Positions 7,688 through 14,871 of a stretch of DNA of 64,000 bases are shown in pieces. This DNA comes from Candidatus Zymogenaceae bacterium (GTDB taxonomy: Bacteria; Desulfobacterota; Zymogenia; Zymogenales; Zymogenaceae). Under the pieces are notes generated by a model, which did not search any database, was not told where the DNA came from, and saw nothing but the letters and a program-made list of their open reading frames with translations. The stretch spans positions 1 through 64,000 of the forward strand of contig JAFGFE010000012.1 of NCBI GenBank assembly GCA_016931225.1, given 5' to 3'. How positions within the stretch are numbered: the first letter of the stretch is position 1; each line of letters opens with the position of its first letter. The position numbers were made by a program, and so were the translations under genes.

Positions 7688-7921
7688 CAGTTTGGTCCGC
7701 CGATAAGGGCGGTGTGATTCTGAGGGGAGCGACTTTTCAGTCCGTTTTTACGGGATGCGATGCGACCGGATGGGGGAGATGTGTGTGGGCAAGACGATAA
7801 CGCGACGATCATTTTGGCATTGGATCGGCCTAATGCAAAAAAAGACGCATGAGATCGGCTGCATGGGCGATGCGACGCCGTTTTTTCGGGAAACAGGCGT
7901 CCCGTCGAGATGAAACTCCTC
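7688..7921. other. Intergenic stretch with no recognised gene
   Basis: About 230 bases between the usp terminator and the promoter of the TPR gene. I see no ORF with coding character, no RNA fold and no repeat. Confidence 0.6.
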
Positions 7922-7950
7922 TTGCATTTTGCCCGTTATTTATATATCAT
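7922..7950 (+). promoter_or_regulatory. Candidate sigma-70 promoter for the TPR gene
   Basis: TTGCAT (7922-7927), a 17-base spacer and TATCAT (7945-7950), about 38 bases before the GTG start at 7988, in an AT-rich patch unlike its surroundings. Confidence 0.5.
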
Positions 7951-7987
7951 AATTAGATTAGCATCATACCGAGGGCGGAAGAACGAC

Positions 7988-8626
7988 GTGAAGATAATAA
8001 AGTGGCTCATGCACATCACGCTGGTGTTCGTTATTGTGGGAGCGGTTCTTGGAATGGGCGGCGTTCGGTCCGCACAGGCTGAAGATGAAAAGTCCGTTTG
8101 GGACAAGGCGGACGAGATGCTGGAAGAGGGAGAGTACAAGGAGGCCGTGTCTCTCTATACGATCGCCGTTGAATTGAATCAGGGGCACCCGGATCTCTAC
8201 CTGGCTTATTTTAACAGGGCGCACGCCCTCATTTCCCTGGAGCGGTTTGAAGACGCCGAAAGCGATCTGGATACCACCATTGAGTTGGCCCCAAACTTTC
8301 CGGACGCCTACAAGCTCCAGGGGATTCTCAAGCTGAGTCTTGGGTATTTCGAGGAAGCAATAACCGACTTCGATACCCTCATCGAGTTGACACCCGAGGA
8401 CCCGTACGCGTATGCGAATCGGGGTACGGCGCTGTCGTATCTCGGGTTATTCGATCGGGCACTGGCGGATTTCAATACATCCATAGAGCTCGACGATACG
8501 TGCGCCGAATGCTATTACAACCGGGCACAGCTTCTAATCCTGATGGACAGAGGCGACGACGCACAAAATGATCTCAACCGGGCGGGTGATCTCGACTCCC
8601 GCTATCGTAATCAGGGAGAATACTGA
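7988..8626 (+). CDS. Exported TPR-repeat protein
   Basis: A 212-aa protein of about five tandem tetratricopeptide repeats (about residues 35-205), for example AYANRGTALSYLGLFDRALA. TPRs mediate protein-protein contacts; no catalytic domain is present. The frame is open from an ATG at 7910, but translation from GTG 7988 gives a clean signal peptide (basic start, hydrophobic core, cleavage after AQA near residue 30). The upstream candidate promoter also fits that start. It is followed one base later by a single-TM protein, so the two probably form an operon. The specific function is unknown. Confidence 0.8.
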   Translation: MKIIKWLMHITLVFVIVGAVLGMGGVRSAQAEDEKSVWDKADEMLEEGEYKEAVSLYTIAVELNQGHPDLYLAYFNRAHALISLERFEDAESDLDTTIELAPNFPDAYKLQGILKLSLGYFEEAITDFDTLIELTPEDPYAYANRGTALSYLGLFDRALADFNTSIELDDTCAECYYNRAQLLILMDRGDDAQNDLNRAGDLDSRYRNQGEY

Positions 8627-9487: not shown

Positions 9488-9889
9488 CTACGATGTCTCA
9501 TCGGTACCCAGCCCCTCCAGAAGCGGGTAGCAATAGCGCTCGCCCTTTGACGAATTGATGGTGGCGATGGTGGTCAGTACCAGATGGATGACGGCCACCA
9601 CCGGAACGATCAGAAATCCCGCCAGCACCAGGGTCAGTATCCCCCCGATGCTCAGCAGCAGAAGCATAATCGATTGAAACACCAGCGCCTGCAGGGCCTG
9701 GTGATTGACGAAGCCGTTTTTCTTTCCCTCGGTCAGCATGATGAACAACGGGATGAGCAGGTGCAGCCCGTACAAAAAATAGAGGAGAAAGCCGGAGGCG
9801 TGGGCCGCGACGGCCCAATTGATGACACTTCGATCGGGCGTGTCCCGCTCTGGGCCGGAAAGAAGCCGATTTGTGCCCTGTGTGTTCAT
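9488..9889 (-). CDS. DUF4870-family membrane protein (first copy)
   Basis: A 133-aa protein with the DUF4870 pattern: a first hydrophobic helix after a polar N-terminus (AAHASGFLLYFLYGLHLLIPL), the segment FVNHQALQALVFQSIM, then two more helices. Function is unknown for the family. GGAG six bases before the ATG supports the start. A related DUF4870 gene lies 20 bases upstream on the same strand. The two share the NHQA/HHAR-QSLIFQSIM core and a C-terminal G-E-x-Y-x-YPL motif, so they probably arose by duplication. This is the last gene of the minus-strand cluster that starts at 13811. Confidence 0.8.
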   Translation of the reverse strand: MNTQGTNRLLSGPERDTPDRSVINWAVAAHASGFLLYFLYGLHLLIPLFIMLTEGKKNGFVNHQALQALVFQSIMLLLLSIGGILTLVLAGFLIVPVVAVIHLVLTTIATINSSKGERYCYPLLEGLGTDETS

Positions 9890-9909
9890 ACGAGGCTCCG
9901 TGTGTTATA

Positions 9910-10443
9910 TCAGACCCGATCCATCAGGGGGTAGGTATACCATTCTCCCCGTGAGGCGGCGAAGGTGGCGATGATGACGAAGACCACATGGCACACCATC
10001 GTTAAAAGCAGCACCGGGAGGCCGATGAGTACGAAGCTGAGAATAGTAAACAAGATCATCGCGCCGGTCATAATGCTCTGGAAGATCAGAGACTGCCTGG
10101 CGTGGTGGCCGACGAACGCGTCCTCGTTTCCCTTGAGAATCAGAATCAGGCCGGGAATGATGATGTTCAGGCCGGGGGCCGGGTAGAGCAGGACGCCGGC
10201 GAGGTGGGCGATGAGGGCCAGGTTGCGGTCGCCGACCGTATCCTGACCTTCCGGTTTCTTCGGAGCTTCGGGGGCGGCCTTCGGTTTTGTCGCTCGCTTT
10301 GAGCCGCTCGACTTTTTTGTCCCGCCGGATTTCGATGATTTTGAGGAACCGGCGCCGCCCGCGGCGGCGATATCTTCCTTCGCGTCACCGATGAATTCTT
10401 CGGAAGAGGGACGTTCGTCTGAAGGTTTCTTTTCGTCGGTCAT
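9910..10443 (-). CDS. DUF4870-family membrane protein with Lys/Ser/Ala-rich N-terminus (second copy)
   Basis: A 177-aa protein. Residues 1-70 are low complexity (Ser, Lys, Ala, Pro; for example GGTKKSSGSKRATKPKAAP) and probably disordered in the cytoplasm. Residues 72-177 are a DUF4870 domain with three hydrophobic helices and the FVGHHARQSLIFQSIM core. The ATG follows GGAGG closely. It sits 14 bases after ccdA. The basic tail could contact nucleic acid or anionic lipid, but that is speculation. Confidence 0.8.
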   Translation of the reverse strand: MTDEKKPSDERPSSEEFIGDAKEDIAAAGGAGSSKSSKSGGTKKSSGSKRATKPKAAPEAPKKPEGQDTVGDRNLALIAHLAGVLLYPAPGLNIIIPGLILILKGNEDAFVGHHARQSLIFQSIMTGAMILFTILSFVLIGLPVLLLTMVCHVVFVIIATFAASRGEWYTYPLMDRV

Positions 10444-10457
10444 GATACCTCCGTACG

Positions 10458-11249
10458 TTACAGGATATAGGTGAGAATGGCTTCGAAACCGGTGGTGAAG
10501 AGAAAGACTCCCAGTACCACCAGGAGCAAACCGGCGACGATATTCACCGCCGGGATAAAGCGTTTAAAGCGATTGAAGAGGGCCAAAAACGAGTTGAACG
10601 CGAGGGACGCCAGGAGAAAGGGGAGGCCCAGTCCCAGTGAAAAAACAAGGAGCAGGACAACACCGTAGAGGGCGTTGGAGGATTCTCCAATGACCGCGAG
10701 GCTCAGGATCGCCGCCACGATGGGGCCGAGACAGGGAGACCAGCCCGCGGCGAAGGTGATTCCGACCAGAGAGCTTCCGATGAATCCCGCCGGCTTTTGT
10801 TTCAGGTGAACCTTTCGCTCGGTGTCCATCAGGGAGAAGAGCCGTATGAAGAATGAGAGGATCGGCCCCGGCTCCCGTTCCCGTTCGATCATGCCGTATT
10901 GGATCCGAAGCAGCATCATGCGAATCAGGCCGCTGATATATATCCCCAGGACAATAAGAAGCACCGCCCCGATCTTTCGGATGATCTCCTTGTAGGTGAA
11001 GAGCGCCCCCCCCATCAGCCCGAACAGCGCCCCCAAGGCCGTGAAGACGATGGAAAAGCCGATGATAAAGAATATCGAGTGCAGCACCGTTGCCCGGCGC
11101 ACCGATTTTTTATTTTCACCGGTCAGCTCGTCGAAGGACATGCCGGTGATGAAGGTCAGGTAACTGGGCAAAAGCGGCAGCACGCAGGGGGAGATGAAGC
11201 TGACGATGCCGGCCCAGAAGGCGACAAAAATGGAGAGCTGTGTATCCAT
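10458..11249 (-). CDS. ccdA: CcdA-type thiol-disulfide transmembrane transporter
   Basis: A 263-aa polytopic protein of the CcdA/DsbD transmembrane family, which carries electrons from cytoplasmic thioredoxin across the inner membrane to periplasmic thiol proteins (cytochrome c maturation, disulfide reduction). It has about six hydrophobic helices and both redox Cys motifs: SFISPCVLPLLPSY in helix 1 and GWSPCLGPIVAA in helix 4. A longer than usual charged loop (about residues 115-155) separates the two halves. No periplasmic thioredoxin or cytochrome gene is next to it. It starts 13 bases after the outer-membrane barrel gene. Confidence 0.92.
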   Translation of the reverse strand: MDTQLSIFVAFWAGIVSFISPCVLPLLPSYLTFITGMSFDELTGENKKSVRRATVLHSIFFIIGFSIVFTALGALFGLMGGALFTYKEIIRKIGAVLLIVLGIYISGLIRMMLLRIQYGMIEREREPGPILSFFIRLFSLMDTERKVHLKQKPAGFIGSSLVGITFAAGWSPCLGPIVAAILSLAVIGESSNALYGVVLLLVFSLGLGLPFLLASLAFNSFLALFNRFKRFIPAVNIVAGLLLVVLGVFLFTTGFEAILTYIL

Positions 11250-11262
11250 GTCGGTTCAGACC

Positions 11263-13038
11263 TTAAAAATGGTATTTTATCTCAAGAAAAAACTGATCGT
11301 TGTGCTCGAACAGGCCGAAAATCGTGTAGGGATCCCCGTTATAGATATTCGCCCCGAGCGTAAATTCCAGGGTGTCGGTGTATTTATATGTCACCTTGGG
11401 GGTGATATAAAAATCCCCATCAGTAATATTATATGATAGAGTCACTTCAGGAATCAACGTATCATTGAAAAATTTTTTATTCGCGCTCAACGTCAGCATG
11501 TTCTGGACTTCCTCTTCCAACAGGTCGCCGTCGTAGTCGAAGATGATTTTTTGAACGAGCTGGAGGTTGACGTAGAGGTTTTCGCCGAAGATTCGATCCA
11601 CGCCGATGACGTACCTGAGATAGTTTTTCTGCGTGGGGCGTAGGACGTCCGTGTACGTATACGCGCCGAGAAAGAGCGCGCCCTCCCCCCGAATGCCGTA
11701 GGCTCCCCAGGTGGTGGCGAAATCGAGGCCAACCACGTGGAGGCGCTTATGCTCCAGGTAAGCGGATTCGGTCAGTTCATATATCGGCAGGGAGGCGATA
11801 TAACCCGGTATATTTCCGTTTTCGATCGCGTTGTACAGGCCGTCGGAGAAGTAGATCGTGGGGATCTTATCGAAGAGATAAGCGTATGAGACGGAAAAAT
11901 CCCAGCCTTTGAATTTAGACGATATCCGTACCCCCCCTTGGAGGTTTTCCAGGCTGTATGACGGGGGATTGGGCGAGCTGTAGTTTCTGACGACCCAGTC
12001 CAGCACCTCCATGCTTTCGTCGTCGATCACCTCGCTGTAGGGGAGGTAACCGCCGCTGTATTCGGTGACGATGCCGGGCCGGTACAGCGCCCAGTCGCTC
12101 CCCCATAGGGCCATCTCGTGATCCTGGTAGAAGGGGACCAGGCCCAGCTCGAACACCGTGTTCTCCCGGTAATAATCCATCTTGAGGGCGAACACCGGGA
12201 TCCGCCGTTCCTCCGTATCTCCGGTGAGAAAATTGGTCACGTTCAGAGCGTTCAGGTTGTCGGTCGGATTGATGATATCGGTCCTTCCCCAGGCGAACAC
12301 CTGGTTGCCGATCCTGATATCGAATGAACCAAATGAGACGTCAAGATACGCCTCATCGAGTTCCACCTCGTAATCGTAGTGGGTCCGCCCGCCGGTGTAG
12401 ACCTCGTACTGCCCGTGGGCGGATACGAAAAACGATAGGTTATCGCTCACCGGGTGTCTCAGCTTTACGTACGCTTTTGGATGCATCTCGAAGAGATCCT
12501 CACGGGGATTATCCCAGACGATATCGGTGTTACAGCGCATCTTGAGATACCCGCCGAACTCGGTTTCCGGGGCGAAGAGATCGTCCAGTGACGACTGTAT
12601 GCGGGAGAGGTTCATGCGGTCGATGATCACAGGCTTTGGAGACGTGGCGAGTTTTTCCACACTGCGCTCCACATCCCGCACCCGGAGGTCGCCTATCTCG
12701 GCCACGGCGACTGCTATGGTCTCAGACCTGAGCCGTGTGAGCTCCTCCAGCTCATCGACCAGTTCCCGGCGGAGGACCGGGTCGTCTGCCAAGATCAGGG
12801 CGGCGGTAACCCGCTCGATATTTTCATCGATGGACGAAAGCCGGGCCAGGAGGTATTTCCTGACGTCTTCCACCAGGATGCGGATGTCCTCGTGGTGTAT
12901 GGGAGGATTGAGGTAGTCCGCCGTCGGTTCGATCGTCTCGTCCCGGGCGAGGGTGGGGGAGGCGAAAACGGCACAGAAAAAAAAGAACAGCAGGGCCGCC
13001 AGAGATACACCGGCGGCCCCTCGTTGCGCGTTGTTCAC
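11263..13038 (-). CDS. Outer-membrane beta-barrel protein, DUF1302-like
   Basis: A 591-aa protein. A signal peptide (residues 1-32, cleavage after LA) is followed by a predicted coiled-coil helix (about 48-130) and then about 450 residues of alternating beta strands ending LEIKYHF. A terminal Phe is the classical barrel-assembly signal. Segments such as SFGSFDIRIGNQVFAWGRTD resemble DUF1302-like barrels, which often accompany LolA-like and RND/MMPL exporter genes. It starts two bases after the LolA-like gene, so the pair is probably translationally linked. No RND/MMPL transporter is present here. The substrate is unknown. Confidence 0.75.
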   Translation of the reverse strand: MNNAQRGAAGVSLAALLFFFFCAVFASPTLARDETIEPTADYLNPPIHHEDIRILVEDVRKYLLARLSSIDENIERVTAALILADDPVLRRELVDELEELTRLRSETIAVAVAEIGDLRVRDVERSVEKLATSPKPVIIDRMNLSRIQSSLDDLFAPETEFGGYLKMRCNTDIVWDNPREDLFEMHPKAYVKLRHPVSDNLSFFVSAHGQYEVYTGGRTHYDYEVELDEAYLDVSFGSFDIRIGNQVFAWGRTDIINPTDNLNALNVTNFLTGDTEERRIPVFALKMDYYRENTVFELGLVPFYQDHEMALWGSDWALYRPGIVTEYSGGYLPYSEVIDDESMEVLDWVVRNYSSPNPPSYSLENLQGGVRISSKFKGWDFSVSYAYLFDKIPTIYFSDGLYNAIENGNIPGYIASLPIYELTESAYLEHKRLHVVGLDFATTWGAYGIRGEGALFLGAYTYTDVLRPTQKNYLRYVIGVDRIFGENLYVNLQLVQKIIFDYDGDLLEEEVQNMLTLSANKKFFNDTLIPEVTLSYNITDGDFYITPKVTYKYTDTLEFTLGANIYNGDPYTIFGLFEHNDQFFLEIKYHF

Positions 13039-13040
13039 GG

Positions 13041-13811
13041 CTATTCTTTCAAATATCGCTCGGTAAAGTAGTCATCCGGGATATCCAGATTGTACTGGAT
13101 CTCGTTGATCCTGAGTATGGTCTTGCGTCCCTCCTGGACGTTGTCCATCAGGCTCTCGGTGGTCGTCCAGATGCCGTCGATCTCTTTGATCTCCGAGACG
13201 GTCAGTATCTTCAATAGCTCCATGTTTTCGTCATAGAACTCGATGCGTATCGGAATCCAGATATCCGGACGCACCCAGGAGATGAACTTGCCGTACTGGG
13301 ATTCCTCACCCTCCTTGGGGATGCTTTCCACCACGTGGCAGGTGTATCCGTTAAGCTGTTCATCCCGAAGGTATGTATGGGTGTCCTTTTCGACCTTTCT
13401 GTTTTCCATATCCTCATAGGTAAACTCGGTTCCCATGAAGCGGGAGCTCTTTTCCGACGAGGCGATGCGTCTGGGGTCCTGCTTGAGGGCGGGCAGGTAG
13501 AGAAACTGATCGTCGTCTCGGTCGTCGTTCTCCCACACCAGAAAGCCGGTTCCCTTCACGTCAGCGGGGGCCAAAAAGCGTATCATGCTTTTGGACAAAT
13601 CGCCGTAATCCTTGCTGATCATGCGAACGGTTCTCTCCTTTTCCTGTCCCTTGTCGTTGATGAGGATCATGGTGGTTTCGCTGGCGGCGGAGTCACCGTT
13701 GTCCCGGTCATGCACGTTCTGGACGATCTCGGTGCCGGTGATGGCGTATGCGCCGGCCGCGAGCGAAAGGCACAGGATTGTGGCAAGAAGCAATCGAAAT
13801 CCGAATTTCAT
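13041..13811 (-). CDS. LolA-like outer membrane lipoprotein-sorting protein
   Basis: A 256-aa exported protein of the COG2834 / LolA-like group. The start at 13811 is chosen because GGAGG lies just upstream and a good signal peptide (cleavage after GAYA, about residue 23) follows. The longer frame to 13880 begins at the predicted transcription start. The LolA-like half-barrel shows KGTGFLVWEN, DDQFLYLPALKQDPRRI and FMGTEFTYEDMENR, which are typical of the uncharacterised members that pair with DUF1302-like barrels and RND exporters. It is probably periplasmic; the lipid or lipoprotein cargo is unknown. First gene of the minus-strand cluster. Confidence 0.85.
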   Translation of the reverse strand: MKFGFRLLLATILCLSLAAGAYAITGTEIVQNVHDRDNGDSAASETTMILINDKGQEKERTVRMISKDYGDLSKSMIRFLAPADVKGTGFLVWENDDRDDDQFLYLPALKQDPRRIASSEKSSRFMGTEFTYEDMENRKVEKDTHTYLRDEQLNGYTCHVVESIPKEGEESQYGKFISWVRPDIWIPIRIEFYDENMELLKILTVSEIKEIDGIWTTTESLMDNVQEGRKTILRINEIQYNLDIPDDYFTERYLKE

Positions 13812-13886: not shown

Positions 13887-13915
13887 AGTCTATCAAACGA
13901 TTGATTGATTGTCAA
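13887..13915 (-). promoter_or_regulatory. Sigma-70 promoter for the envelope cluster
   Basis: On the minus strand TTGACA (13915-13910), a 17-base spacer and TAGACT (13892-13887). Transcription would start near 13880, leaving a leader of about 70 nt before the ATG at 13811. Confidence 0.75.
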
Positions 13916-14139: not shown

Positions 14140-14871
14140 ATGAAATATGCGATCATTTCAGATGTACATGGAAACCTGGAGGCCCTGAGTGCTGTGGTCG
14201 AAGATATCGAAAAGGTGGGAGCGGATCGGGTCTTTTTTCTCGGCGACGCGGTGGGATATGCCGCGGATCCCCGGAAATGCATCATGCTTTTGGATTCCGT
14301 GTGCGACGTGCTGATCGCGGGAAATCATGACAAGATCACTGCCACGAGCCTGGGGATGGAAGATCTCGGCCCCGCGGCGCTGGCCTCGCTCCGGTGGACC
14401 ATCGACGCCGTAACCGGAGACGAGGTGCGGTGGCTTCGGCGACTCGTCATGCACCAGGTGGAAAACGGCATGCACCTGGTACACGGCCACCCGGACAGGC
14501 CGCATCTGTGGCGATATACGGAGACGCGCACGGACGCAGAGGACGCGTTTGAGAAATCGGAACACAGGGTACTGCTCGTCGGGCATACCCACAGGCCCGG
14601 GGTGTTTTCTTTGGAAAGGGGGGAGATACGCTGCATCGATCATGAAAAGGGGCCGATTTCTCTTGAAAGGCGATGTCGATACATATTCAATTCTGGCAGT
14701 GTGGGTCAGCCCAGGGACGGTGATCCCCGGGCGTCGTACGGCCTGCTTGATATGACAGAGGGCGTCTTCACCGTTCGCCGGGTTTCCTATGATATCGCAC
14801 GAGCGGCCGAGAAAATCTACGAGTCCGGGCTCCCCCGGGACATGGGGGATCGGCTGTTTCGGGGTGAATGA
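14140..14871 (+). CDS. Calcineurin-like metallophosphoesterase (YfcE/diadenosine tetraphosphatase type)
   Basis: A 243-aa binuclear metal phosphoesterase. All metal-binding motifs are in order: SDVHGN (about residues 8-13), GDAVGY, GNHD, VHGH and GHTHRP, then FNSGSVGQPRDGDPRASYG, which is typical of COG0639/COG2129-like phosphodiesterases. The family hydrolyses phosphodiesters or nucleotides such as Ap4A; the substrate cannot be told from sequence. Length and start are normal (MKYAIISDVHGN). It is monocistronic: a terminator follows at 14933. Confidence 0.88.
   Translation: MKYAIISDVHGNLEALSAVVEDIEKVGADRVFFLGDAVGYAADPRKCIMLLDSVCDVLIAGNHDKITATSLGMEDLGPAALASLRWTIDAVTGDEVRWLRRLVMHQVENGMHLVHGHPDRPHLWRYTETRTDAEDAFEKSEHRVLLVGHTHRPGVFSLERGEIRCIDHEKGPISLERRCRYIFNSGSVGQPRDGDPRASYGLLDMTEGVFTVRRVSYDIARAAEKIYESGLPRDMGDRLFRGE

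Follow-up and report, generated by a model that had tools for sequence, protein, structure and literature searches.

Why should genes for a LolA-like periplasmic carrier and a DUF1302 outer-membrane beta barrel, a pair that normally keeps company with an MMPL pump, be followed in Candidatus Zymogenaceae by the gene for CcdA and by two genes for DUF4870 proteins? The question is raised by a cluster of five minus-strand genes (13811..9488) in a stretch of 64,000 nucleotides, here called the window, which forms the start of contig JAFGFE010000012.1 (C12) of a Candidatus Zymogenaceae bacterium (GCA_016931225.1; genome G000, 3.73 Mb in 46 contigs, 99% complete). An initial annotation, made from the sequence alone, had named these genes, and Pfam matches confirmed all five identities and their place, in the order LolA-like protein, barrel, CcdA, DUF4870 a and DUF4870 b (Table 1). 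The observation made there is thus confirmed, and its interpretation is partly supported by the results below. The parts of the cluster are known and their arrangement is unusual; the cluster is real and is kept within one family.

The explanation that we prefer, with a probability of about 0.6, is an operon of functionally separate halves, in which the transport arm of an Ame-like system, with its pump encoded elsewhere, stands together with an ordinary CcdA and HOTT (DUF4870) proteins. In an AmeABCD-like (HAE3/MMPL) system that transports hydrophobic molecules, the LolA-like protein would act as periplasmic carrier and the DUF1302 barrel as outer-membrane component. An unlinked pump, of the C10 or C31 type described below, would lift the substrate from the inner membrane, the LolA-like cup would ferry it through the periplasm, and the barrel would let it through the outer membrane. 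CcdA, the sole transmembrane thiol-electron carrier found, would pass electrons to thioredoxins of the TlpA/CcsX type in the periplasm, mainly for cytochrome c maturation by system II (ResB-CcsA), and the DUF4870 proteins, being small membrane proteins of the HOTT family, may aid the insertion or localisation of membrane proteins.

The carrier and barrel pair without a linked pump

The barrel was searched for in 39 genomes including that of the window, of which 18 matched, three of them from the family, and all 25 barrel loci outside the family were read on stretches of 3.3 to 16.0 kb. A LolA-like gene stood in the cluster at 17 of these loci, and in 14 of the 17 it was joined by a same-strand MMPL gene, which bears out the initial claim that LolA-like and DUF1302 genes usually go with an RND/MMPL exporter. 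The MMPL profile used here was built from four proteins of the window's own genome and three linked ones, and those three match by construction. Of the three pairs without MMPL, one lies on contig C3 of G034 and two lie on short contigs of G006, where the carriers match DUF1329 as well. Three other barrels had an MMPL gene but no adjoining carrier (a weak LolA-like match 3.2 kb off in G004 C347 was left uncounted), and five had neither, most of them near contig ends. Neither CcdA (0/25) nor DUF4870 (0/25) was found at these outside loci. In the G034 C3 locus (L064 8145-10700), an 851-amino-acid protein with a weak PD40 match occupies the usual place of the MMPL gene beside the pair.

By profile, the family clusters have no MMPL gene in or near them, whether in the window, over 16.0 kb of G001 or over 14.0 kb of G002. 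Since 14 of the 17 outside clusters of LolA-like and barrel genes carry an MMPL gene, it is clear that the pair is normally accompanied by such a pump and that Ca. Zymogenaceae is an exception.

Four genomes of the family were compared, namely G000 (own), G001 (89% complete), G002 and G003 (88% complete, 550 contigs). The order LolA-like gene, barrel, CcdA and DUF4870 is intact in two of them and runs across a contig break in a third, so that three genera are represented, and the neighbourhood is therefore conserved within the family, with 0 of the 25 outside barrel loci showing CcdA. G001 has the four genes in this order, with one DUF4870. In G002 the genes lie on two contigs: 196 bases separate the LolA-like and barrel pair from the start of C25, and 139 bases separate CcdA, which DUF4870 follows, from the end of C7; the two contig ends have no overlap or 20-mer in common, and the adjacency of barrel and CcdA is probable there, as both genes lie at contig ends. 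Spacing is looser in these relatives: barrel and CcdA are 158 bases apart in G001, and CcdA and DUF4870 are 163 bases apart in G002. By alignment the LolA-like protein, the barrel and CcdA have diverged to 45–66% identity across the genera (46% between the window barrel and that of G001, locus L020). In G003 neither barrel nor CcdA was found at the cut-offs used, and in a genome of its completeness and fragmentation loss and assembly gap are indistinguishable. Within this sample, the operon and the hairpin of its barrel look family-specific. A search of the openly licensed literature on Zymogenia and Zymogenaceae found no paper.

The intergenic gaps in the window are 2, 13, 14 and 20 bases in gene order, so that the spacing of 13–20 bases first noted holds for the last three and not for the first. 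The single promoter proposed initially has a candidate in an extended -10 type site ahead of the LolA-like gene (Table 1); promoter-like sites in the region, however, are no more numerous than chance would give (4 vs 3.1 +/- 2.0 in shuffles). The layout suggests that the five genes are transcribed jointly as a single message, for which one promoter is plausible. The nearest flanking frames are unrelated and lie on the opposite strand: the one at 14140 encodes a calcineurin-like phosphoesterase, and the small one at 8568 matched no Pfam family. At 12979-13020 the signal-peptide codons of the barrel gene contain a terminator-like pattern, made up of a GC-rich stem and then a T run, which may reflect merely a run of Phe codons. 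A protein with TPR repeats is encoded near the window cluster (7910-8626) and another just after the G001 cluster, their orientation relative to the operon being different.

Table 1. Positions of the cluster features in the window and of the AhpC-TSA frames on other contigs
Feature	Position	Strand	Evidence or remark
LolA-like periplasmic carrier, 256 aa	13041..13811	-	PF17131 E 3.7e-69; apparent signal peptide by eye
DUF1302 outer-membrane beta barrel, 591 aa, GTG start	11263..13038	-	PF06980 E 1.8e-15
N-terminal two-helix hairpin, barrel codons 50-131	12646..12891	-	model helices 50-83, 87-131
CcdA, 263 aa, conserved cysteines SPCVLP + GWSPCLGP	10458..11249	-	DsbD_TM PF02683 E 8.5e-18
DUF4870 (HOTT) protein a, 177 aa	9910..10443	-	PF09685 E 1.8e-23
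DUF4870 (HOTT) protein b, 133 aa	9488..9889	-	PF09685 E 9.8e-22
Promoter-like site TTGACA-17-TAGACT, TG before second hexamer (extended -10 type)	13887..13915	-	~75 bases before LolA-like start
AhpC-TSA TGA frame L102, own genome	C14:9697-10095
AhpC-TSA TGA frame L099, G003	C21:4090-4488
AhpC-TSA TGA frame L100, G002	C88:15011-15409

Unlinked MMPL genes and the barrel hairpin

The initial annotation had stated that the exporter is absent. This is correct for the window and for the whole of contig C12, but MMPL matches are present on eight other contigs of the same genome, and some of these genes are related to barrel-linked pumps. Four of the encoded proteins (C31, C45, C10 and C20) were compared with the large barrel-adjacent proteins of four genomes, and three of the four queries matched them; the remaining query, a G034 protein, does not belong to the MMPL family. 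C31 was the best match for the G019 query (36% identity over 758 amino acids) and also for the G005 query, for which C10 scored nearly equal, and C20 was the best match for the G011 query. A phylogeny of 27 proteins united the C31 and C10 types in one clade (95/96) with the linked pumps of G005, G013, G017, G019 and G038, and placed the C20 type, on weaker support (82/73), close to a second group of linked pumps. C45 was remote from the barrel-linked pumps in both the comparison and the tree. A C10-type gene is present in all four family genomes, and the C31 type in two of the four (G000 and G002). Thus, judging from these relations, the pump appears to be missing only locally, with related MMPL genes on other contigs. 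The most likely partner would be sought among two types, the C10 type being the most general candidate and the C31 type the closest to the barrel-linked pumps.

The carrier has solved relatives in 9tp6 (E 3.1e-56), 3bk5, 4z48 and 3buu, and it also matches DUF1329 (E 8.7e-11), the match to PF17131 being far better. A LolA-like paralogue on C19 and weaker LolA-like matches on C40, C39 and C5 are all without a barrel, because the genome has a single DUF1302 match. The C19 protein (L065 1732-4296) represents another carrier setting, its neighbours being a winged-helix regulator and an FtsX-like permease.

The N-terminal coiled coil supposed for the barrel was examined by structure prediction. The model of the whole barrel, made from a two-row alignment, has a predicted local distance difference test score (pLDDT) of 34.1, and the two-helix hairpin is the sole part modelled with fair confidence. 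The supposition is supported in part: both helices appear in the model (Table 1), with block pLDDT values of 68-81 over residues 51-110, but confidence falls to 55 and 43 over residues 111-130. When barrel residues 41-145 were used as the query, 3 of the 297 genomes of the phylum sample matched, and these were the three family genomes that have the cluster. Identity of the hairpin is 29-33% within the family, and in an alignment the region was wholly or almost wholly absent from five of six outside barrels; in G019, where the barrel frame was extended upstream, the stretch cannot be judged.

These observations bear on another explanation, namely that the pair has given up its MMPL pump and that substrate comes in or goes out passively or by some other source of power, the hairpin of the barrel reaching into the periplasm to hold the carrier. 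Such a route is possible, though we consider it rather unlikely. It would fit the count of linked MMPL genes, 0 of the 3 family genomes with the pair vs 14 of 17 clusters outside, and the confinement of the hairpin to those same three genomes. However, MMPL genes related to barrel-linked pumps occur in all four family genomes, the hairpin sequence is only weakly kept even inside the family, and the barrel of G014, which is partnerless in 9.2 kb (with just 963 bases on one side), has no hairpin. That the hairpin holds the carrier, or an unlinked pump, is speculation drawn from the model.

CcdA and the DUF4870 proteins

No DsbD_TM gene other than that for CcdA was found in the genome of the window, and both membrane cysteines of the protein are kept in all five aligned sequences. 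It has a solved relative in 5vkv, a CcdA from Thermus. An insertion of about 24 amino acids in the middle of the window protein is absent from four aligned relatives. CcsA is encoded in all four family genomes and is preceded by a gene of ResB length, with ResB (CcsB) confirmed by Pfam in both genomes scanned (own and G002), and two tandem TlpA-like proteins with WCxxC motifs and, by eye, export signals are encoded on contig C20 of the own genome. In L015 and G172, a related CcdA gene has a thioredoxin-like gene just before it or one gene before. System II is described as made up of CcsA, CcsB, CcsX and either CcdA or DsbD (PMC4222556, excerpt). Since ours is the sole DsbD_TM gene found and ResB, CcsA and TlpA-like proteins are encoded elsewhere in the genome, we read it as a system II CcdA. 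Most simply, it would serve periplasmic thiol reduction generally and cytochrome c maturation by system II particularly.

A redox-linked outer-membrane transport or maturation system, in which CcdA would reduce the LolA-like protein or the barrel, had been suggested initially, and this suggestion found little support. The tight spacing in the window would suit it, as would the order with CcdA kept in G001 and, across the contig break, in G002, and one lone LolA-like cysteine is common to the window, G002, G019, G034 and G005 (five of the seven aligned carriers). The last three of these, however, have the cysteine without a linked CcdA. When the cysteine positions of carrier and barrel were compared over the three family genomes, none was common to all three: the G001 carrier and the G002 barrel are devoid of cysteine, and the window and G001 have their barrel cysteines at different positions. 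The ordinary partners of CcdA, moreover, are encoded elsewhere in the genome. Because no carrier or barrel cysteine is family-wide and the LolA-like cysteine also occurs where CcdA is unlinked, a conserved thiol role of either protein tied to CcdA is unlikely, the case being less firm for the window's own proteins, and we regard a redox-linked system as very improbable. As a separate observation, a peroxiredoxin-like (AhpC-TSA) frame with one in-frame TGA occurs in three of the four family genomes (Table 1) and is a candidate selenoprotein.

Both DUF4870 proteins match PF09685 well above its cut-off of 25 bits (83.0 for a and 77.4 for b). What had been called a duplicated pair does consist of two PF09685 proteins, but not of recent duplicates: a and b are 37% identical, less than the 49% between a and the DUF4870 protein of G001, and b is therefore no fresh copy of a. 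A second DUF4870 gene was not seen beside the first in G001 or G002, so that among the three family genomes with the cluster the tandem pair was seen in the own genome only. In the excerpt of PMC11628618, the family is renamed HOTT and placed in the superfamily of Tic20; its MamF-like magnetosome branch is said to target a subset of membrane proteins, and the rest of the family is called uncharacterised. The model of DUF4870 a (pLDDT 61.1) has a charged N-terminal tail of low confidence and helices at 70-85, 92-104, 109-139 and 142-164, two short ones, a charged turn and two long ones, an order that resembles the HOTT description in that excerpt. Foldseek gave no significant match with this model, and the VIA rows, with Z up to 8, held mostly ligand-gated channel helices, which we took to be a common helix arrangement; Tic20 was not listed.

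The adjacency of CcdA and DUF4870 is seen again in G001 and G002, and among the loci read it is found in this family only. The condition under which the initial annotation was to be refuted, absence of this adjacency from every other genome, therefore did not come about. DUF4870 was detected in 14 of 297 genomes, three of them from the family, and CcdA was absent from the 11 DUF4870 loci outside it (stretches of 1.9-3.4 kb). Among eight CcdA loci, L020 belongs to the family genome G001, L015-L019 show CcdA without DUF4870, and L021 and L022 match over 39 residues only and have no CcdA by profile; G172 (L069) likewise has CcdA without DUF4870. CcdA-DUF4870 as a common pair was accordingly rejected, the pair being confined, among the loci read, to Ca. 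Zymogenaceae.

Could the HOTT proteins be insertion or sorting factors for the membrane proteins of the operon, that is, for CcdA and perhaps the unlinked pump? Their pairing with CcdA in three genera, the targeting activity reported for the MamF-like branch and the helix order of the model (both by reference to PMC11628618, excerpt) point in this direction. The 11 outside loci without CcdA, the fold comparison without a significant match and the uncharacterised state of the rest of the family in the same excerpt point away from it, and we hold such a dedicated role to be improbable. The least probable explanation of all, in our view, combines a pump-free route by carrier and hairpin-bearing barrel with HOTT-assisted assembly, CcdA being in the operon as envelope redox would control assembly or output.

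Several points weigh against the preferred operon of separate halves. In the tree, several linked pumps fall outside the C10/C31 clade, some of them on long branches. No C31 pump was detected in G001 (89% complete) or in G003, which rules this type out as the general partner. In G003 the C10-type gene (L123, C22:458-2743) is interrupted by one internal TGA, whereas each of the three remaining family genomes has it as a single frame. The c-type cytochrome family PF02335, the sole client family searched, is absent from all four family genomes. Finally, the linkage persists in three genera, one of them with a contig break in between, despite the divergence to 45-66% identity, which hints at some functional tie that separate halves leave unexplained.

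Comparison with known systems

The cluster is a naturally occurring example of a hydrophobe transport system, itself poorly understood, whose carrier and barrel genes are unlinked from the pump, and candidates for that pump can be named. In three genera, moreover, a HOTT protein, from a family whose role in bacteria is almost unknown outside magnetosomes, is encoded next to a single membrane protein of defined identity, CcdA.

The closest counterpart of the transport arm is AmeABCD of Castellaniella defragrans, which comprises the DUF1302 protein AmeA, the DUF1329/LolA-superfamily protein AmeB, AmeC and the HAE3-type RND pump AmeD (PMC6394551, excerpt). As in the system so described, a DUF1302 barrel adjoins a periplasmic protein of the LolA superfamily in the window, and related MMPL/RND pumps are present in the genome. 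Unlike AmeABCD, the window cluster has no linked pump, and an AmeC-like gene is absent among its five genes, which gave no other family match; its carrier favours PF17131 over DUF1329, its barrel has an extra hairpin, and CcdA and DUF4870 genes follow.

The other half of the operon compares in the same way. The window CcdA has both membrane cysteines of a system II CcdA, with ResB-CcsA and TlpA-like proteins encoded in the genome (PMC4222556, excerpt), but its gene stands within an outer-membrane transport operon and the protein has the insertion of about 24 amino acids. Both DUF4870 proteins belong with the HOTT family by their PF09685 matches, membership of the MamF-like branch described in the excerpt of PMC11628618 not being established for them.

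A precedent for an unlinked pump is found in Pseudomonas putida, where PP_0765 (DUF1302) and PP_0766 (DUF1329) are phenotypically linked to PP_2018 and PP_2019, a periplasmic protein and an efflux transporter (PMC10866462, excerpt); judged by locus numbers, barrel and carrier lie apart from the transporter there too. In that excerpt the link rests on shared growth phenotypes and co-folding, and in our case on the sequence relation of the unlinked MMPL proteins. In benzene-degrading Desulfobacterota, a 'Nanopod' cluster with DUF1329, porin-like and MMPL genes has been described (PMC13101534, excerpt).

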